A DNA stretch of 64,000 nucleotides from Acidobacteriota bacterium (GTDB taxonomy: Bacteria > Acidobacteriota > Vicinamibacteria > Vicinamibacterales > UBA2999). Made by a program: the position numbers and the translations under genes. Under the pieces are notes generated by a model, which had not been told where the DNA came from, searched no databases, and saw only the letters and a list, made by a program, of their open reading frames with translations. Each line of letters opens with the position of its first letter. The first letter of the stretch is position 1. Of the stretch, positions 879-41,066 are shown piece after piece. Where the stretch lies: NCBI GenBank assembly GCA_030650395.1, contig JAUSDY010000176.1, positions 124,001-188,000 of the forward strand. The letters are read 5' to 3'.

Positions 879-3800
879 AGATGCCGCGCCAGCCTTCTTC
901 GAACAACGTATACATCGCCGGCACGAACACCAGCGTGATCATGGTCGAGGTGATGAGGCCGCCGATCACGACGCGGGCGAGGGGGGCCTGTAGCTCCGCG
1001 CCTTCACCGATGCCGAGCGCCATCGGCACCAGGCCGAGGGCCGTGCACCCCGACGTCATCAGGATGGGGCGCAGGCGATGGCGTCCGGCGAGCTCGATGG
1101 CCGCGCGCAGCTCCATCTTGTCGCGGTGGCGAAGCGTGTTGGTGTAATCGACCAGCAGGATGGCGTTACTCACCACGATGCCGGCGAGCATGATGACCCC
1201 GATGTAGGCCTGCATGCTGAACGGCGTCTTCGTCAGCAGAAGAATGCCGACCACGCCGATCGCCGCCAGCGGGATCGAGAAGATGATGATGAACGGATCC
1301 TTCAGCGATTCGTACTGCGACGCCATCACCGTATAGACCAGCACGATCGCCAGGATGAGGACCAGCCGCAGCTCGTTGAACGAGCGGTTCTGTTCCTCGA
1401 CTTCGTTGCCGAAGCCGACGGCGAAGTCCTTGGGCACCGTGATCTGGCCCATGTTCGCGCGCACCGCGGCGACGGCTTCGCTCAGCGTCGTCTCGGTCTC
1501 GGCGTTGACGCGCTGCACGCGCTCCTGGTTCTTGCGCTCGATCGAGACCGGACCGGTGTCGCGGTCGATGATCATGACGTTCTTGGCGGGCAGGACCTGG
1601 CCGCTCGGCGTGTTGAGGAGCACGTCGCCGACTTCGGAGATCTCCTCGCGGTCTTCCTGGCGCAACCGGACGATGATGGGGTACTCGTTGCCCGCTTCAC
1701 GGAACATCGCGGCCTGTGTGCCGGCGACGTTGGTGCGAATCGTGTTGGCCACGCCGGTGACGGTGAGGCCGAGCATCGCCGCCTTGTCGCGATCGACGCG
1801 CACCGCGAGCTCGGGGCGTCCTTCTTCACGCTGCAGCCGCGCGTCGGCGATGCCGGGTGTGGCCTCGAGCATCGCCTTGAGGTCCTGCGCGATCCGTTTC
1901 GAGGTGTCGAGGTCGTGGCCGAGGATCTCGATCGACAGGCGGCCGTCGCCGCCGCCGCCGCCCATGCCGCGCATCATCTGGTTCTGGCCGCCTGAGGGCC
2001 GCGCCCGAATGATGACGCCGGGGATGCCGGACAGGTCGCGACGCAGCTGCATCGCAATCGCTTCATTGCTGCGGTCGCGCTCGTCGCGCGGGACCAGGCG
2101 CACGTTGACGTTGCCGCGATGCATCGAGCCGCCGCCGAAGCCGCCGCCGCCGGCCTGCGTGATCAGCATGGTCGCTTCCGGCACCGCGGCGCGAATCTTG
2201 TCCTCCAGGCCGATCAACACGGCCTCGGTGAGCTCGATGCGCGAGCCGACCGCCAGCTCGGCGTCGACCGTGATCTCGCCTTCGTCGGTCTGCGGCTGGA
2301 ACTCAAAGCCGATCCGCGGCAGCAGGAGCACCGCGACCAGGAACAAGCCGAAGCCGGTGGCAAACACCGTCGGCCGATGCACCAGTGCCTTGTGAAGCAT
2401 GCGCGCGTAGAACTCGTCGAGGTTGTTGAGCGCGCCGTCGATCTTGCGGTTGGCGCGCGCGAACACGCCCGTGCCGGCGTGCTGCAGGTGCGGCGGATCG
2501 AGCAGCCGCGAGCACAGCACCGGCACGATGGTGACCGCGACCAGCAGCGACATCGCCAGCGAGAACGACACCACGGCGGCGAGCTGGCCGAACATGATGC
2601 TCGACACGCCCGTCAGGAACAGCATTGGCACGAACACCGCGATGTGGGTCAGCGTCGACGCGAGAATCGCGGACCACACTTCTTCACTGCCGTCGATCGC
2701 CGCGGTCACGCGATCCTTGCCCATTTCGAGATGGCGATAGGTGTTTTCGAGCACGACGATTGCCGCATCGACGATCATGCCGATGCCGAGTGCCAGGCCG
2801 CCGAACGTCAGCGTGTTGAGCGTGTAGCCGCCGAAATAGAGCAGCGCGAAGGTGCCGATCACCGACACCGGAATCGAAGTGCAGATGATGAAAGTGGACT
2901 TCAGGTCGCGCAGGAACAGGAAGATGATGGAGACCACGAGGAGGCCGCCGAGCAGGGCGTGCTCGGTGACGCTGCCGATCGCGCGCGCGATGAACTTCGA
3001 CTGGTCGTCGAGGATCTGGAGCTTGATGCCGCTGACGTCGGCGTTGATGCGCTCGACTTCCTTCTTGACGCCGTCGGCGATCTGGATCGTATTGGTGCCC
3101 GACTGCTTGGTGACCTGCATGCGGATGCCGGGCGTGCCGTTGATCCGCATGAACGAGCGGCGGTCTTCGGTGGTGTCGCGCACGTTGGCGATGTCGCGCA
3201 GGTAGACCGGCACGCCGTCGCGGGTCATCACCACGAGGTTGCGGATCTCGTCGACGTTGGTGAACTGTCCGGGGCTCCGCAGTAGCAGGGTGCGGTCGGC
3301 GTCGTTGATCTCGCCGAGCGGGATATTCTGGTTCTCGGTGCGGAGAATCTGCACGATGCGATCGGGCGCGAGATTGAGCGCCGTGATCTTCTCGCGCGAC
3401 AGGTCGACACGAATCTGGCGGCGCAGCCCGCCGTTGATCGTGACGGCGGCGACGCCGGCGACGCGCTCGAGGCGGGGCGACAAGTCGTTCTGCGCCAGCT
3501 CGCGAAGCGTGACCGCGTCGAAGTCGCCCTCGACGCCGATGCCCATGATTGGCATTGCCGTCGAGTCGAACTTGAACACCGTCGGCGCGTCGGCGTCTTC
3601 CGGCATGCGGCCGCGGACGCGGTCGACGCGCGTGCGCACTTCATCGGCCGCTTCGCTCAAGTCGGTGCCCCAGGCGAAGTTGAGCCGGACGTTGGCGCTG
3701 CCTTCCGACGAGGTCGAGTCGACGCGCTCGAGGCCCGCGACGGCGCTGACCGCCTGCTCGATGGGGCGCGTCACCAGCTCCTCCATTTCGAGCGGGCCGA

Positions 3801-3960
3801 CACCCGAGTAGTTGACGCGCACCGTGATCGTGGGCATCTGCGTATCGGGCATCAGGTCGACCGGCAGCTTGGTGAGCGAGATGCCGCCCAGCAGGATGAT
3901 GACCATGCTGATCATGAACATCGTGACGGGGCGTTCGATGGCAATGCGCGGAATGCTCAT
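838..3960 (-). CDS. RND-family efflux transporter, inner-membrane pump (AcrB/MdtB-like)
   Basis: This 1040-residue protein has the length and layout of a hydrophobe/amphiphile RND pump: an N-terminal membrane helix (residues 9-30), a large periplasmic loop, a block of helices from about 335, a second loop from about 560, and a final helical block. It would use the proton gradient to drive substrates into the TolC channel. The transmembrane-4 motif reads [15 protein letters not shown], with Asp398 followed by Ala399 where AcrB has two aspartates. The second periplasmic loop has Gly/Met-rich stretches ([24 protein letters not shown]). It is the last gene of a minus-strand operon behind the outer-membrane channel and adaptor genes. 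Substrate cannot be read from sequence. Confidence 0.93.
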
Positions 3961-3975
3961 AGGCGTCTCTGGATT

Positions 3976-4006
3976 CTAAACTCTGAACTCTGCACTCTTA
4001 ACTCTG
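3976..4006. repeat. Short-period AT-rich repeat between adaptor and pump genes
   Basis: Four imperfect copies of ACTCT with flanking A/G bases recur every 8-9 bases (AAACTCTG, AACTCTG, CACTCTT, AACTCTG). The stretch is clearly AT-richer than the genes on either side. It lies in the 87-base gap upstream of the RND pump start. It belongs to the same style of junction repeat seen elsewhere in this window, though with a different unit. Confidence 0.6.
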
Positions 4007-4047
4007 CGGCGGAACTAAAGTGCCGCTCTACACCGTCGGTACAAACA

Positions 4048-5457
4048 TCACTGCGGAGGCCGTTGTCCGCCGGGAGGACGCTGGCCTTCCGCGCCTGGCG
4101 GACGCTGCCCGCCTTGAAACTTCCGCGCGCCGTCCGTCGCGCCGCCACGGCCGCCGCGGCCGGCACCGGCGGCACCACCCGCGCCACCAAATCCACTGGC
4201 GGGTGCGGCTTCGCCCGCAATCAGGAGCACATCGTTGTTGCGCACGGCGGTGGCGCCGGTCGTCACGATGCGATCGCCTTCCTTGAGGCCGCTCTTGATC
4301 TCGACGCGCTCGGCGTCCTCAATTCCCAACTCGACCGGCACAAAGCGTGCGCGCTTTTCGTCGTTGGGCATCCACACGCCGCGCTTGCTCTCGAAGTCGA
4401 TGACGGCGCTCTTCGGGGCGACGAGCGTGGCCTTGCGCTCTTCCACGACCAGGCTGACGCGCGCATACATGCCGGGCTTGAGCCGGTTGTCGCTATTCTG
4501 GATTTCGATTTCCATCGACGCCGTGCGCGTCGCCGGATCGAGCACCGGTGCGACCCGGGCAATGCGGCCGCGGAATGTCTCGCCAGGGTAAGCGTCCACT
4601 TCGACATCGCCGGTGTCGCCCGTATCCACCAGCCTGAGGTCTTTTTCGACGACGTTCACAATCAGCTTGAGGCGCGAGATCTCGACCACCGACGCGACGG
4701 GCTGGCTCTGCGACACCATCGCGCCGGGATCGACGTAGCGCTTGCCGACAAAGCCGTCGACCGGCGAGGTCACGGTGGTGTTCTGCAGGTTGATCCGCAG
4801 CTCCTGCAGGCGCGCGTCGGTCTGATTGAGCTGCGCCTTCGACAGATCGATCTGCGCTTCGGCGGCCATGTACCTGGACTCGGCATCATCGAGCGACTGC
4901 TTGGCGAGCAGCTGGCGTTGAAACAGGTTCTTCGATCGCTCGAAGTTCAGCTCCGCGACTTTGAGGTCGGCCTCGCGCTGGCGAATGGTGGCCTTCGAGA
5001 CCTCGAGCGAGGCCTCCTGCTGGTTGACCTGCTCGCGGATTTCACGATCTTCGATCTTCGCCATCACCTGGCCGCGCCGGACGCGATCGCCCAGCTGCAC
5101 CGACACGCTCATGAGACGGCCGCCGGTCTTGGGCGCGACCTCCACGGTCTGCAGGCCGATCAGATTGCCGACGACGGTGAGGTGAGCCGCGAGGTCGCCG
5201 CGCTTGACCGACGCCATTTCAACCGTCAGCGGCATGCGCGGGCCGCCGCCTCCGCCGGGCATGCCGAACCCGCCGAAACCACCAGCGCCGCCGCCCTGCT
5301 GTTGGGGACGCTGCCCGCCGGGTGCGGCCGCGCCGCCTGCTTGCTGGCCACCGCCAGGACCGGCCGCTGCCGTGTCTTCGCTCGAGAAGACGCCAAAATA
5401 CGCTGCGGCGCCGAGCCCGACAGCCACCACGATCGCGATTACCAGAAATTTACGCAT
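4048..5457 (-). CDS. RND efflux membrane-fusion (periplasmic adaptor) protein
   Basis: The protein links the inner-membrane RND pump to the outer-membrane channel. From the start at 5457 (MRKFLVIAIVV) it has one N-terminal membrane anchor. A Gly/Gln/Pro-rich linker of about 55 residues follows. Then come a lipoyl-like half motif (VEVAPKTGGRLMSVSVQLGDRVRRGQVMAKI), a coiled-coil hairpin rich in Gln, Glu and Arg, the second lipoyl half (NTTVTSPVDGFVGKRYVDPGAMV), and beta-barrel and membrane-proximal domains. The C-terminus is again Gly/Pro/Gln-rich and low complexity. An upstream in-frame ATG at 5520 would add 21 hydrophilic residues before the anchor and overlap the channel gene, so it was not chosen. 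The gap to the channel gene is 34 bases. Confidence 0.92.
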   Translation of the reverse strand: MRKFLVIAIVVAVGLGAAAYFGVFSSEDTAAAGPGGGQQAGGAAAPGGQRPQQQGGGAGGFGGFGMPGGGGGPRMPLTVEMASVKRGDLAAHLTVVGNLIGLQTVEVAPKTGGRLMSVSVQLGDRVRRGQVMAKIEDREIREQVNQQEASLEVSKATIRQREADLKVAELNFERSKNLFQRQLLAKQSLDDAESRYMAAEAQIDLSKAQLNQTDARLQELRINLQNTTVTSPVDGFVGKRYVDPGAMVSQSQPVASVVEISRLKLIVNVVEKDLRLVDTGDTGDVEVDAYPGETFRGRIARVAPVLDPATRTASMEIEIQNSDNRLKPGMYARVSLVVEERKATLVAPKSAVIDFESKRGVWMPNDEKRARFVPVELGIEDAERVEIKSGLKEGDRIVTTGATAVRNNDVLLIAGEAAPASGFGGAGGAAGAGRGGRGGATDGARKFQGGQRPPGAEGQRPPGGQRPPQ

Positions 5458-23672: not shown

Positions 23673-24560
23673 ATGGCAGATCTAACGTCCAAAACGAAGC
23701 AGGTAGAGTCGCGATCGGCGCCGTTACAATTGACGGACCATCCGGTCGAGTTGCGCTTCGGCTTTGAAAGCCGCCAGTCAAATGTGGGCGTCGGTGCCTC
23801 CGTGGCCGCGCATCTGGGCTTTGCTTTGCTGTTCCTGCTGGCTCTCCGGCTCGCACCACAGCCGGGCCCGCCGACCGTCTTCGATACGCCCGATATTACA
23901 TCCCTGATTTTCCTGCCCATTCCTGGTCCGGGCGGCGGTGGCGGCGGTGGTGGCAACAAGGCACCGGAGCCGCCGCGTAAGGCCGAGGTCAAGGGCGTCG
24001 AGGCGGTGTCCATCCCGGTCGAGAAAAAGGTCGACCTGAAGCCAGACCCGCCGAAGGAAACACCTCCGGAGGAGCTCGTGCTCCCCGTGAAGCCGATGGC
24101 GGCGGCGGAGCAGCCGTTGCCCGGCATCATTCAGCCGACGGCGCCGACAACCGAGTCGCAGGGCGCGGGCGCTGGAGGCGGAGCGGGCACCGGCACGGGA
24201 ACGGGCGCAGGGTCGGGCCAGGGGTCGGGCATCGGCCCCGGCTTTGGCGGCGGCATCGGCGGGGGAGCGTATCGACCTGGCTCGGGAATCACCCTGCCGC
24301 GGGTGCTGAGAGAAGTGAAGCCGGCCTACACCGCCGACGCCATGCGCGCCAAGGTGCAGGGCTCGGTCTGGCTCGAATGCATCGTGATGCTGGACGGCTC
24401 GGTGGGCGACGTCAAGGTCACGCGGTCGCTCGATCCGATTTTTGGCCTCGATCAGGAAGCGATCAAGGCCGCCAAGCAGTGGAAGTTCGCCCCGGGCATG
24501 CGCCAGGGCGAGCCGGTGCCGGTCATCATCACGATTGAGCTCACCTTCACGCTCCGCTGA
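23673..24560 (+). CDS. TonB-family energy-transducing protein
   Basis: TonB spans the periplasm and passes proton-motive force from ExbB/ExbD to outer-membrane receptors. The 295-residue protein has one membrane helix (VAAHLGFALLFLLALRLA, about residues 45-62). A long Pro/Lys/Glu-rich part follows with KKVDLKPDPPKETPPEE, then a Gly/Thr/Ser-rich spacer (about 155-200). The C-terminal TonB fold contains LREVKPAYTADAMRAKVQGSVWLECIVMLDGSVGDVKV and ends in a beta-strand ITIELTFTLR. No exbB or exbD is adjacent and no receptor gene is in the window, so the partner receptor is unknown. Confidence 0.88.
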   Translation: MADLTSKTKQVESRSAPLQLTDHPVELRFGFESRQSNVGVGASVAAHLGFALLFLLALRLAPQPGPPTVFDTPDITSLIFLPIPGPGGGGGGGGNKAPEPPRKAEVKGVEAVSIPVEKKVDLKPDPPKETPPEELVLPVKPMAAAEQPLPGIIQPTAPTTESQGAGAGGGAGTGTGTGAGSGQGSGIGPGFGGGIGGGAYRPGSGITLPRVLREVKPAYTADAMRAKVQGSVWLECIVMLDGSVGDVKVTRSLDPIFGLDQEAIKAAKQWKFAPGMRQGEPVPVIITIELTFTLR

Positions 24561-24597
24561 TTTTTCAAGCCACCGGCCGTCGCTCGTTGAGGCGAAC

Positions 24598-24740
24598 GTT
24601 CCTCACGGGGGTTCCTCGCAGGGGTTCCCACGGCGGTTCCATACGAGGGTTCTAACGAAGGTGCTACCGCGGTTCCGCGAACCTCCGTGAAGAACCGTCG
24701 TTTGGAACCGCGGTGGGGAACCTTCGTGGGGAACCGTCGT
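24598..24740. repeat. Inverted array of 12-13 bp repeats
   Basis: The left half is a run of units beginning GTTCC: GTTCCTCACGGGG (24598-24610), GTTCCTCGCAGGG (24611-24623), GTTCCCACGGCG, GTTCCATACGAGG, GTTCTAACGAAG and GTGCTACCGCG. After a centre near 24672-24685 the pattern inverts and units end in GAACC: GTGAAGAACC, GTCGTTTGGAACC, GCGGTGGGGAACC, TTCGTGGGGAACC. The whole can fold back as several alternative hairpins. It fills the gap after tonB and forms the N-terminal codons of the truncated hydrolase frame. Confidence 0.75.
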
Positions 24741-25166
24741 CAGTCCGAGCAACCGCGCGGGCTGGCGAGTGCGATTGGCTTTCTGATGATGGCGACGAGC
24801 GTGCCGCTGCAATGGCAGAAGCAGTTTCCGACGATCGAGGCGTCCGACAAGTGGCTGGCCGATCAGATCGCGTCGCGCTCGAAGGCCACCGACGCCAACG
24901 ATATGTTGTATTACTTCCGCGCGATCGAAGACTACAACCCCGCGCCGCACCTGGCGAAGATCACGGCGCCGCTGCTGGCGATCAACTCCGCGGACGACTT
25001 CGTGAACCCGCCTGAGCTGCCGATGATGCAGGACCTGATCAGGCAGGTGAAGAACGGCCGCTTCGTCCTGCTGCCGATCACCGATGCGACCCGTGGCCAC
25101 GGCAGCCACTCGCTGCCGGCGATCTGGGGGCCGGAGCTGGTAAAATTCATGGCGGAGCTTAAGTAG
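24687..25166 (+). pseudogene. Truncated alpha/beta-hydrolase (homoserine acetyltransferase-like), C-terminal fragment
   Basis: The open frame of 159 codons begins inside the repeat array; recognisable protein sequence begins at about 24756 (RGLASAIGFLMMATSVPLQW). From there it matches the C-terminal part of MetX-like alpha/beta hydrolases. It includes YNPAPHLAKITAPLLAINSADDFVNPPEL, which carries the catalytic-acid region, and ITDATRGHGSH, which carries the catalytic histidine. The nucleophile elbow (G-x-S-x-G), the oxyanion region and the whole N-terminal half are missing. It is therefore most likely a gene remnant, probably without enzymatic activity. The 5' break coincides with the inverted 13-bp array, suggesting that the array arose at or caused the deletion point. 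The stop lies inside the next junction repeat. Confidence 0.7.
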
Positions 25167-25199
25167 ATCTCAGATTGCAGATCTCAGATTGCAGATTTG
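25165..25199. repeat. Junction repeat, two perfect 14-bp units plus a part unit
   Basis: AGATCTCAGATTGC occurs at 25165-25178 and 25179-25192, followed by the partial unit AGATTTG (25193-25199). The first unit holds two bases of the upstream TAG, and the last holds the TTG start of prfC, so the whole gap between two reading frames is repeat. GC content is well below that of the genes. Confidence 0.8.
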
Positions 25200-26798
25200 T
25201 CAGAAACCGTTATTACGAATCCAGCGCTGAAAGCCGAAGTCGATCGACGACGGACCTTCGCGATCATTTCTCACCCGGACGCCGGCAAGACGACGCTGAC
25301 TGAGAAGCTCCTGCTGTACGCGGGAGCCATCGAGCTGGCGGGCGCGGTGCGCGGCCGCAAGACCGAGCGCGCGGTGGTGTCGGACTGGATGGACATCGAG
25401 CGTGAGCGCGGCATCTCGGTGACGTCGGCCGCGGTCGAGTTCGACATCGGCGCGCATCGCCTCACGCTGCTCGACACGCCGGGCCACAAGGATTTCAGCG
25501 AAGACACTTACCGCACGCTGTTCGCCGTCGACGGCGTCGTGATGGTGATCGACGCCGCCAAGGGCATCGAGTCGCAGACCCGCAAGCTGTTCGAAGTCTG
25601 CAAGCTCCGGCGCCTGCCGGTGCTCACGTTCATCAACAAGCTCGATCAGCCGAGCCGCGACCCGTTCGATCTGCTCGACGAGATCGAGCGCGTGCTCGGC
25701 ATCCATGCCGTGCCGATGAACTGGCCGATCGGCAGCGGCGATCGCTTCCGCGGCGTGTTCGACCTTCAGGGCTCCAACATTGTCCATTTCTACGAGCGCA
25801 AGGGGCGGGCGCAGGAAGCGCCCGTGCAGGTATCGTCGGCCCAGGACCCGCGTCTGGCCGAGTTGCTCGGGCAAGAGGCATGGCAGCACCTGATCGACGA
25901 GACGTCGCTCGTCAGCGGCGCCGGCACGGCGTTCGATCACCAGGCCTACCTGGAATTCCGCCACACGCCGGTCTTCTTCGGCAGCGCGCTGTCGAACTTT
26001 GGCCTGGAGCCGTTCCTGAAGGCGTTGACCGAGCTGGCGCCGTCGCCCAGGGCGCGCATCAGCGACCAGGGCCTGATCCTGCCCGAGTCACCGAACTTCA
26101 GCGCGTTCGTGTTCAAGATCCAGGCGAACATGAACCGCCGCCATCGCGACCGCGTGGCGTTTCTCCGCGTCTGTTCGGGGCTGTTCGAAAAGGACATGGT
26201 GATCACCAACGCGAGGCAGGGCGCCGAGATCCGGGCCGCCCGGCCATACCGGTTCTTCGGCGGCAAGCGGGAGACCATCGATCGTGCCTATCCGGGTGAT
26301 GTGGTCGGCCTGGTGAATCCCGGCCAGTTCGCGATCGGCGACACGCTGTATGCGGGTGTGCCGCTGAAGTATCCGCCGATCCCGCGGTTCCCCGCCGAGC
26401 ACTTCGGCATTGCGCGCCTGCGCGACGTGCGGTTCAAGCAGTTTGACGATGGCATCAGGCAGCTGGAGGAGGAAGGCCTGATGCAGGTCCTCTATCCGAC
26501 GGTCGGCCGGCGCGAGCCGATTCTCGGCACCGTGGGCCCGCTGCAACTGGAAGTGCTGGCAGCGCGGCTGCAGGATGAATACAACGTGTCGGCCGACGTC
26601 GATTCGTTGCCCTACACGGCGGCACGCTGGGTGGTCGGTCCGCCCTTGAAGATTGCGGCGATGGCGGCGTCGACCTCAGGGACGCGGAGCGCGACGGATC
26701 GCGAAGGCCGGCCGGTGATGTTGTTCGAATCGGAATGGGCCTTGGACTACTGCGCGCGCAACAATCCGGACGTGCAGTTGCTCGCGGTGATGCCTTAG
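25197..26798 (+). CDS. prfC: Peptide chain release factor 3
   Basis: RF3 is a translational GTPase that recycles RF1/RF2 from the ribosome after termination. The 533-residue protein has the G1 loop ISHPDAGKTTLTEKLL (about residues 24-39), the RF3-typical switch region TERAVVSDWMDIERERGISVTS, G3 LLDTPGHKDFSEDTYR, G4 FINKLDQ, and the C-terminal RF3 domain ending in ARNNPDVQLLAVMP. SDWM-x-IE-x-ERGIS distinguishes it from EF-G and TypA. The start is TTG at 25197, directly abutting the 14-bp junction repeat, and no clear Shine-Dalgarno sequence is visible. Expression may depend on read-through from upstream. Confidence 0.95.
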   Translation: MSETVITNPALKAEVDRRRTFAIISHPDAGKTTLTEKLLLYAGAIELAGAVRGRKTERAVVSDWMDIERERGISVTSAAVEFDIGAHRLTLLDTPGHKDFSEDTYRTLFAVDGVVMVIDAAKGIESQTRKLFEVCKLRRLPVLTFINKLDQPSRDPFDLLDEIERVLGIHAVPMNWPIGSGDRFRGVFDLQGSNIVHFYERKGRAQEAPVQVSSAQDPRLAELLGQEAWQHLIDETSLVSGAGTAFDHQAYLEFRHTPVFFGSALSNFGLEPFLKALTELAPSPRARISDQGLILPESPNFSAFVFKIQANMNRRHRDRVAFLRVCSGLFEKDMVITNARQGAEIRAARPYRFFGGKRETIDRAYPGDVVGLVNPGQFAIGDTLYAGVPLKYPPIPRFPAEHFGIARLRDVRFKQFDDGIRQLEEEGLMQVLYPTVGRREPILGTVGPLQLEVLAARLQDEYNVSADVDSLPYTAARWVVGPPLKIAAMAASTSGTRSATDREGRPVMLFESEWALDYCARNNPDVQLLAVMP

Positions 26799-26806
26799 GG
26801 GAGGCT

Positions 26807-26930
26807 TGTTAGTTGAAAGTTGTTAGTTGAAAGTTGGCAGTTTCAGTTGCAAGTTCCCAAAAGAAAAAGCCCGGCGGGGAAGTCCCACCGGGCCAACTTT
26901 CAACTGACAACTTTCAACTTCCAACTAACT
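26807..26930. repeat. Inverted pair of 14-bp tandem repeats flanking the groL terminator
   Basis: TGTTAGTTGAAAGT occurs twice in tandem at 26807-26820 and 26821-26834 with degenerate copies to about 26855. After the terminator hairpin, complementary units (ACTTTCAACTGACA and ACTTTCAACT) follow from about 26897 to 26930. The whole 124-base gap between prfC and groL is thus one large imperfect inverted repeat with the terminator at its centre. The stretch is strikingly AT-rich for this genome. Confidence 0.75.
26859..26893 (-). terminator. Rho-independent terminator of the groS-groL operon
   Basis: Read on the minus strand, GCCCGG-T-GGG pairs with CCC-G-CCGGGC around a five-base loop. TTTTTCTTTT follows immediately (complement of 26859-26868). 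It lies about 45 bases beyond the groL stop, the expected place. On the plus strand the hairpin is followed only by a short T run, so it may act weakly for prfC too. Confidence 0.8.
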
Positions 26931-40407: not shown

Positions 40408-41030
40408 TGGCCTTTACCCCGCCGAAGCTCATGCGCGACAAGAATGAGAGCGCAGGGGGGCGGCTCTTCATCGCGATCGATGTCGGCGATGCCGTCCGCG
40501 CCGAAGTCACTCGTGTCGTCGCCCAGCTCGGCGCCAAGCTGGAGGCAGTCAAGACCCCTCCGAAAGTCATCTGGGTCAAGCCTGCAGCGCTTCATATGAC
40601 GCTGCGATTTCTCGGAGAGACCGACGAGGCCGAAGCCGAGCGGGTGCGTGATGCCTTGACGCCGGCGATTGAGATTCCGCCGTTTGATGTTGAGTGGCGC
40701 GGGCTCGGCGCGTTTCCGTCGCCTCGCCATCCGCGCGCGCTCTGGATGGGCGTGGTCCGCGGCGCGGCGCAGCTGGGCGCGGTCGAGGCAGAGATCGCGC
40801 AGCGGTTGGGCGCCGTCGACCCGGAGGCGCGGCCGTTTCTCCCGCACCTCACGATTGGCCGGATCAAGATGGCCGGTCAGGGCGTCGACTGGCCCAAGGT
40901 TCTCAAAGCGGTTGAGGTGCGTGGCGTGACGTCACGCGCCGATCGCGTGACGCTCTACCGCAGCGAATTGTCTCAACGAGGGCCGCACTATACTGGACTG
41001 ATCAGCGCGCCTCTTGCGAATAACCAATAA
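40407..41030 (+). CDS. thpR: RNA 2',3'-cyclic phosphodiesterase (ThpR/LigT family)
   Basis: The enzyme opens 2',3'-cyclic phosphates on RNA ends (2H phosphoesterase). Both catalytic HxTx motifs are present: LHMTLRFLGE near residue 58 and PHLTIGRIK near residue 143. The spacing fits the family. The start may be ATG at 40407 or the GTG one codon earlier; the latter gives a GTGA overlap with cinA. The last five residues (LANNQ) are encoded by the start of the junction repeat, so the gene end has been set by that element. Confidence 0.9.
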   Translation: MAFTPPKLMRDKNESAGGRLFIAIDVGDAVRAEVTRVVAQLGAKLEAVKTPPKVIWVKPAALHMTLRFLGETDEAEAERVRDALTPAIEIPPFDVEWRGLGAFPSPRHPRALWMGVVRGAAQLGAVEAEIAQRLGAVDPEARPFLPHLTIGRIKMAGQGVDWPKVLKAVEVRGVTSRADRVTLYRSELSQRGPHYTGLISAPLANNQ

Positions 41031-41066
41031 CCAATTACGAATAACCAAGAACCAATTACGAATAAC
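41017..41066. repeat. Junction repeat with two copies of the 16-mer
   Basis: ACCAATTACGAATAAC occurs at 41030-41045 and 41051-41066, with a degenerate copy (AATAACCAATAACC) before it. The repeat contains the thpR stop and ends six bases before the plsY GTG. It is identical to the copy upstream of selB at 21315-21330. Confidence 0.8.

Follow-up and report, generated by a model that had tools for sequence, protein, structure and literature searches.

The array at positions 24598-24740 of the window, i.e., of the whole 64,000-nucleotide stretch of DNA analysed, is probably a copy of a dispersed, non-coding, lineage-specific and sequence-recognised fold-back family, which overwrites unconstrained DNA and whose mode of movement we infer. 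Arrays of this family are dispersed over the source genome of the window (G000), keep a strict order of their arms, consist of a constrained unit with arms that vary independently of each other and lie in DNA that is free to vary; at 24598-24740 the array replaces DNA. In one lineage a good part of the intergenic space would be occupied by fold-back arrays with a precise orientation and a fast turnover, and a gene loss otherwise resembling a plain deletion is placed in a genome-wide context. At some sites related species bear a different unit at the same place, which turns the rewriting of bacterial non-coding DNA into a testable question.

Structure of the array and its surroundings

The inverted repeat structure of roughly 140 bases described in the original prediction is real, as seen in the sequence and with a repeat finder, and lies far beyond chance. 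The two-way arrangement held, but the count of about six forward and four inverted units did not, and was replaced by about seven forward and about five inverted copies of the 13-bp unit GGTTCCnCACGnn with a 3-base centre between them. Forward units start with GTTCC or GTTCT at 24598, 24611, 24624, 24636, 24649, 24661 (degenerate) and 24672 at a spacing of 11-13 bp, and the GAACC of the inverted units is found at 24679, 24692, 24705, 24718 and 24731 at a spacing of 13 bp (sequence and repeat finder for both arms). The units are contiguous, in agreement with the earlier remark that unique spacers are lacking. The following features were distinguished:

23673..24560, forward strand: complete tonB-type gene, 295 aa (Pfam TonB_C, E 2.6e-16), conserved in relatives; conservation on the left ends with its stop codon
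24561..24597, no strand: 37 bp from the tonB stop codon to the first unit (sequence), without alignment to relatives
24598..24675, forward strand: forward arm of about seven units GGTTCCnCACGnn, including the degenerate one at 24661 (sequence, repeat finder)
24676..24678, no strand: centre CGC between the innermost GGTTC and GAACC (sequence)
24679..24740, reverse strand: inverted arm of five units at 13-bp spacing (sequence, repeat finder)
24687..25166, forward strand: ORF of the hydrolase remnant, 159 aa, with homology from about 24747; the first ~18 codons are array sequence
25165..25196, forward strand: second, unrelated array, 14-bp unit AGATCTCAGATTGC in 2.3 copies, spanning from the hydrolase stop codon to the next start codon
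25197..26798, forward strand: peptide chain release factor 3-type gene (Pfam RF3_C, E 7.5e-36)

A folding prediction, which had been proposed as a check, gave a strong fold for the array, with -95.1 kcal/mol and z -7.0 as RNA and z -5.3 as DNA. No Rfam family matched it at gathering score (the best of three weak matches reached 24.6 bits vs. 55), and neither a terminator-like (GC stem plus T run) nor a promoter-like site was found in 24450-25300. Close matches to the 14-bp array at 25165-25196 occur elsewhere in G000 and also in the relatives G001 and G007.

Dispersal in the source genome and range across genomes

BLAST with the array yielded at least 75 matches in G000, among which no near-identical copy was found, the best match reaching 81% (40 of 80 candidates scored). 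The pair pattern GGTTCCN{6,9}GGTTCC occurred 138 + 124 times vs. 6 + 2 in a reversed-pattern control, and a strict three-unit pattern 64 + 63 times vs. 0 + 0. Altogether 48 arrays with at least one arm of three or more units were located in G000, in a set drawn from stretches matching the 13-bp family plus samples and tallied after removal of arms with fewer than three units. With dozens of similar arrays elsewhere in G000, mostly between called genes, the alternative that the array is a one-off was refuted. The same holds for a local slippage scar of a deletion, unrelated to other loci, as the original prediction had considered: it would account for the coincidence with the hydrolase deletion described below, but the recurrence of the unit leaves it extremely improbable, and the link with the deletion is one case of a genome-wide family.

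In Neisseria, DNA-uptake signal sequences often form inverted pairs after genes, and the short motif, inverted pairs and position at gene ends recall such signals. However, only two isolated unit cores were counted in a 464-kb sample of G000 (the window plus two contig samples) vs. 0-3 in five Markov simulations, with 12 cores in arrays. Since isolated cores are thus at chance level, the uptake-signal reading is refuted and retains a negligible probability.

The strict three-unit pattern was positive in two of 162 genomes of the order. Among wider genome contigs, where records near the window may be absent, it matched six stretches, all of Acidobacteria bacterium RIFCSPLOWO2_12_FULL_67_14b, and viral contigs gave 0 stretches with the 13-bp array pattern. 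A looser pattern was positive in 10 of 40 relatives, mostly owing to other repeats, but with one short unit-like run in G003 and another in G035, and BLAST with the 13-bp array gave weak matches in G003 and G004 (G001-G008 and G035 are relatives of G000). These short runs and weak matches may be sparse traces of the family outside G000 and G001. A literature search revealed no published description of the 13-bp unit or of such an architecture in Acidobacteriota.

Unit, polarity and independence of the arms

The unit follows the motif GGTTCC-n-CACG-nn, which has 13 bp and is non-palindromic. In 323 units, picked by GTTC at 13-bp spacing alone, positions 1-6 and 9-11 were strongly constrained (C6 85%, A9 96%, C10 99.7%, G11 92%), position 8 was C in 79%, and positions 7, 12 and 13 were variable, so that the earlier statement of unit bases partly differing and partly conserved proved true in this form. 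In two-armed arrays, nearly all outer units have C at position 6, and T occupies it in 20 of the 56 units standing one step from the centre vs. 6 of 55 two steps away (two arrays double-counted).

With regard to arm order, 24 of the 48 arrays run forward-then-inverted, one does likewise with a split forward arm (++-), 15 are forward-only and eight inverted-only, and none is inverted-then-forward. All 25 two-armed arrays hence have the same order, and 23 of 48 arrays are one-armed. This polarity reads identically from either strand, which means that the unit itself, and in no case its complement, makes up the 5' arm. In 16 of the 25 arrays the loop that separates the innermost GTTC from the innermost GAAC measures at most 5 nt, and no conserved centre was found among two-armed arrays.

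Opposite arms of the same array differed at 3.38 of 7 positions and randomly paired arms at 3.24 (26 arrays or pairs), with 1973 of 2000 permutations at or below the observed value after removal of repeat-read arrays; an earlier run with two arrays double-counted had given 3.39 and 1990, and the main test was redone without duplicates. Pooled over units there was a slight excess likeness, 3.25 mismatches between opposite arms vs. 3.47 between units of different loci (two arrays double-counted), whereas the per-array permutation showed no such excess. Arms copied from each other or kept complementary were rejected, no compensatory likeness being present in the 26 arrays. Since the unit is conserved while the arms show no likeness where it varies, it is better read as a recognised sequence than as a stem maintained by pairing, and the 13-bp motif would accordingly be a target for some factor. 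Within arms, adjacent units differed by 2.36 mismatches vs. 2.74 for non-adjacent ones (two arrays double-counted), which argues for local slippage; arms may lengthen, shorten and homogenise locally through replication slippage.

Truncation of the hydrolase after tonB

The relatives G003, G004, G006 and G007, compared as had originally been suggested, possess an intact hydrolase (ORFs of 359-382 aa) directly after tonB, and none of the four has a 13-bp array between the two genes, so that the condition set earlier for separating the array from the deletion did not occur. Between matched flanks they hold 662-734 bp vs. ~190 bp with the array in G000; in this four-relative comparison the array replaces DNA rather than forming a clean insertion. 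Compared with the 360-residue protein of G004, the remnant is short of residues 1-221 and with them of GTSMG (residue 162), which we take to be the nucleophile elbow, and the claim that the array lies exactly where the N-terminal half is missing was thus confirmed as an N-terminal truncation at the array. While the G004 hydrolase matches Pfam Abhydrolase_1 (E 1.7e-14), no Pfam match was obtained for the 159-aa remnant. Its dN/dS against relatives, 0.13-0.19, is within the range among relatives, 0.08-0.21, which means either a recent loss or continuing constraint on the remnant; decay of the remnant was not supported.

In the remaining relatives the locus was less complete. In G005 the hydrolase extends as far as the stretch was read, up to 120 bp before the end of the contig, with tonB on another contig; G002 and G008 showed tonB without hydrolase in the stretch read; and the best tonB match of G001 (56% aa), which may be a paralogue, lies 619 bp from the end of its contig, with no hydrolase or array in between. 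The tonB-hydrolase junction of G003 carries a different small hairpin repeat. The 221 N-terminal codons of a dispensable alpha/beta-hydrolase would have been lost with the array event or with an adjoining deletion, so that what remains of the gene no longer encodes the presumed nucleophile.

Placement in gaps, at stop codons and in protein linkers

Most arrays (44 of 48) lie outside called ORFs, and four lie inside ORFs, in frame in linkers. Of the outer array ends, 30 of 41 facing a stop codon but 3 of 27 facing a start codon came within 8 bp of it (hand-counted), the distances to starts being rough because genes were called with a home-made hexamer model. The four in-frame arrays are:

L009:3695-3822: two-armed, in the MutL linker between the N-terminal domains and MutL_C (ORF translation, Pfam)
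GT4 glycosyltransferase: between its two domains (ORF, Pfam; position by arithmetic)
One protein with beta-lactamase and NamZ domains: between the two (ORF, Pfam; position by arithmetic)
One protein with multihaem cytochrome-like and HEAT parts: between the two (ORF, Pfam; position by arithmetic)

MutL of seven relatives has a different linker sequence at the array site, repetitive in G003 (by eye), in a comparison in which the sequences of G006 and G008 end near or inside the linker; a G001 row for GT4 was excluded as a paralogue. Arrays in gaps as well as in protein linkers indicate that they occupy DNA free to vary, coding or not. The array at L009:3695-3822 is translated within MutL, a mismatch-repair protein that would itself limit repeat slippage.

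The same sites in relatives

Most stretches shared between G000 and G001 show a DNA likeness of 80-87%. At L015, L016, L022 and L038 both genomes carry 13-bp arrays with conserved flanks but differing unit numbers and sequences, and the family consequently predates the split of G000 and G001 and turns over internally; counts of such shared sites are enriched, as several G001 stretches were chosen for carrying arrays. In the linker at L128:1937, forward units in G000 correspond to inverted units in G001.

Elsewhere the relatives bear other sequences at the site of the G000 array, with unit lengths read by eye and confirmed by TRF for 7, 7, 8 and 12 bp. At L012:3656 a 7-bp inverted array (TTTCGGC) is present in G001 and 13.9 copies of TCAGGGA in G004, and all three arrays, including that of G000, begin at the stop codon of the same gene. 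A long unrelated hairpin takes the place of the array in G001 at L012:7732, and a plain hairpin does so at L042:2206. At L012:12898, G001 has 33 bp without array and G007 a 9-bp GGTTCCAnn inverted array (by eye, outside the TRF stretch); G001 shows an inverted array of ~8-bp units (CAATCG core) at L042:1595, and G003 a 12-bp array in the linker at L128:4740. Few sites allowed a replacement to be read, and for most arrays no clean empty site was found.

Taken together, unconstrained location, replacement and arrays in linkers speak for a repeat that spreads and whose copies survive where they are harmless. Copies might arrive in a process resembling break repair or transposition, at the expense of unconstrained DNA nearby, and purifying selection would remove those harming needed genes.

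Short-unit arrays of other families

In the 464-kb sample of G000, 67 of 227 gaps of at least 30 bp contained a short-period array vs. two after shuffling. The corresponding numbers in 200 kb each were 22 of 96 gaps in G004 (control 0) and 14 of 98 in G007 (control 3). Array-bearing gaps in G000 were commonest between convergent genes (17 of 39), followed by tandem (40 of 140) and divergent ones (10 of 48). Ends within 8 bp of a stop codon numbered 38 of 74 in this census vs. 24 of 74 under random placement within the same gaps, and start-facing ends 11 of 60 vs. 9; part of the closeness to stop codons hence results from arrays filling short gaps. Other units in G000 are AATAACC, AAGGCAG, GAGTGCAGAGTTAA, GGGATCA, GGTGCCTAA and an 18-bp GGGAGG...CTTGTC. 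Over eight motif families, limited to those hand-named from the short-array census, 14 of 14 two-armed arrays were forward-then-inverted, and one-armed arrays between tandem genes were sense in 18 and antisense in eight cases, a trend only. That the architecture is common to other unit families suggests a common process rather than the machinery of one element. In the window, other-family short-unit arrays occur near gene ends at 3967-4006, 26806-26836 with 26892-26926, and 41017-41066, and the pair at 26.8-26.9 kb looks inverted.

The position at gene ends raises the question whether the arrays are terminators or mRNA-stabilising 3' hairpins under RNA-level selection, with the unit as mere stem material. 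The strong predicted RNA fold of 24598-24740 (z -7.0), the closeness of 30 of 41 stop-facing ends to stop codons, the prevalence of convergent gaps and the lean of one-armed arrays towards sense would fit, and hairpin clusters without U tracts were reported to terminate transcription, without sequence conservation according to the authors (PMC8355165). Like these clusters as there described, the arrays form hairpins just after stop codons, where no U tract is needed, but they differ in their constrained 13-bp motif, in one-armed arrays and in arrays inside ORFs. Selection on RNA is further opposed by the lack of compensatory pairing between arms, the lack of a terminator-like site with a T run in 24450-25300, the 23 of 48 one-armed arrays, the four arrays in coding linkers, and a strand difference in folding energy without consistent sign by transcription direction in 26 arrays. 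We therefore regard it as unlikely, although terminator use of many copies as a by-product is possible.

Strict polarity together with arm independence would also be expected from telomere-like break healing, in which a common template supplies the same repeats to the 3' strand at both ends of a double-strand break, before the two tails are joined. Expected from this model are two independent inverted arms, sometimes with filler, plus a deletion at the site. Variable arm lengths and the deletion at the hydrolase locus agree with it, as do the polarity shared by several unit families (14 of 14) and the neighbouring arm pairs of at least three units each and 0.4-1.8 kb apart, which were forward-then-inverted in four of four cases (L029, L035, L040, L042). 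By eye, the DNA between opposed arms ~430-530 bp apart (L035:3419-4111, L029:3552-4133, L121 ~3512-4184) resembles a small gene or fragment and is possibly filler captured at the centre of the array. At L042, however, G001 shares the gene enclosed by the arms, which shows that the DNA in the middle need not be filler, and the tight centres (loops of at most 5 nt in 16 of 25 arrays) exceed what random joining needs. For RVT_1, a single match close to the start of a contig was obtained in G000 and none in five relatives, among which G001 also bears the 13-bp family. Polarity, arm independence and deletion would all follow from break healing in which both ends receive identical repeats, but no enzyme in its support was found with the RVT_1 search, and we consider it rather improbable. 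Similarly doubtful is its extension to a genus-wide process that writes inverted arrays of many units (7, 8, 9, 12, 13 and 18 bp) into unconstrained DNA, often by stop codons and overwriting older arrays, e.g., by template-directed repeat addition to both break ends followed by joining; if true, it would be a bacterial counterpart of fused telomere repeats and an undescribed process.

Comparison with known systems

The architecture of the dispersed family is close to that of fold-back elements. Eukaryotic fold-back transposons have inverted termini of tandem sub-repeats with variable arms, with or without a middle, and produce target duplications on insertion. The 13-bp arrays likewise consist of inverted arms of tandem sub-repeats, but were found without target duplications, without an element body and in a bacterial host.

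The nearest described case found for the 13-bp family is that of the TAACTGA-type heptamer arrays of Beggiatoaceae, Cyanobacteria and Bacteroidetes (PMC4679880). These are mostly intergenic and in most cases closely precede a start codon; one genome has 169 direct sets, a single case among 170 sets is inverted, and no mechanism of spread was evident to the author. Both are tandem sets of short units, mostly intergenic and many per genome; the heptamers are direct and stand before starts, whereas the 13-bp units form two inverted arms with outer ends mostly at stops.

The original prediction had set the array apart from CRISPR and REP elements, and both exclusions stood. CRISPR, with near-identical repeats and unique spacers, was rejected because the units of 24598-24740 are contiguous at 11-13 bp and arranged in two inverted arms. 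REP and REPIN elements are palindromes of 20-40 bp with a GTAG/CGTC-type head, whereas the 13-bp unit GGTTCCnCACGnn is non-palindromic and has no tagged head. With REP/BIME/REPIN elements and their RAYT (PMC2817692), the arrays share dispersed extragenic repeats able to form hairpins, but the units of the arrays do not alternate.

A non-autonomous transposon of REP/REPIN or MITE type, driven by a known transposase family, would nevertheless suit dispersed, mostly intergenic, inverted and hairpin-forming arrays, and G000 has one Y1_Tnp gene. Inverted termini as in MITEs are present in all 25 two-armed arrays (forward-then-inverted), but no target-site duplication was detected in the 24 of them tested, the split-arm (++-) array having been left out, and 923 of 2000 permutations reached the observed flank similarity; the MITE reading was rejected on this ground. 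Together with the unit itself, the lack of a conserved centre also weakens the transposon reading. A REP-type transposase should be flanked by its own repeats, but no 13-bp array was found at the 12 Y1_Tnp loci fetched of 35 matches, including the single one of G000, and three Y1_Tnp genes viewed with their flanks carry other palindromes. Moreover, Y1_Tnp genes are fewest in G000, where arrays are most numerous (one such gene vs. 5-13 in five relatives). This reading is therefore very unlikely, and among the Y1_Tnp and RVT_1 matches no mobilising enzyme for the 13-bp arrays was identified. The Y1_Tnp loci L130 and L131 bear separate, GGTGTCAGACACC-like palindromes, and L133 a 26-bp repeat with GGACAAACC...GGTTTGTCC.
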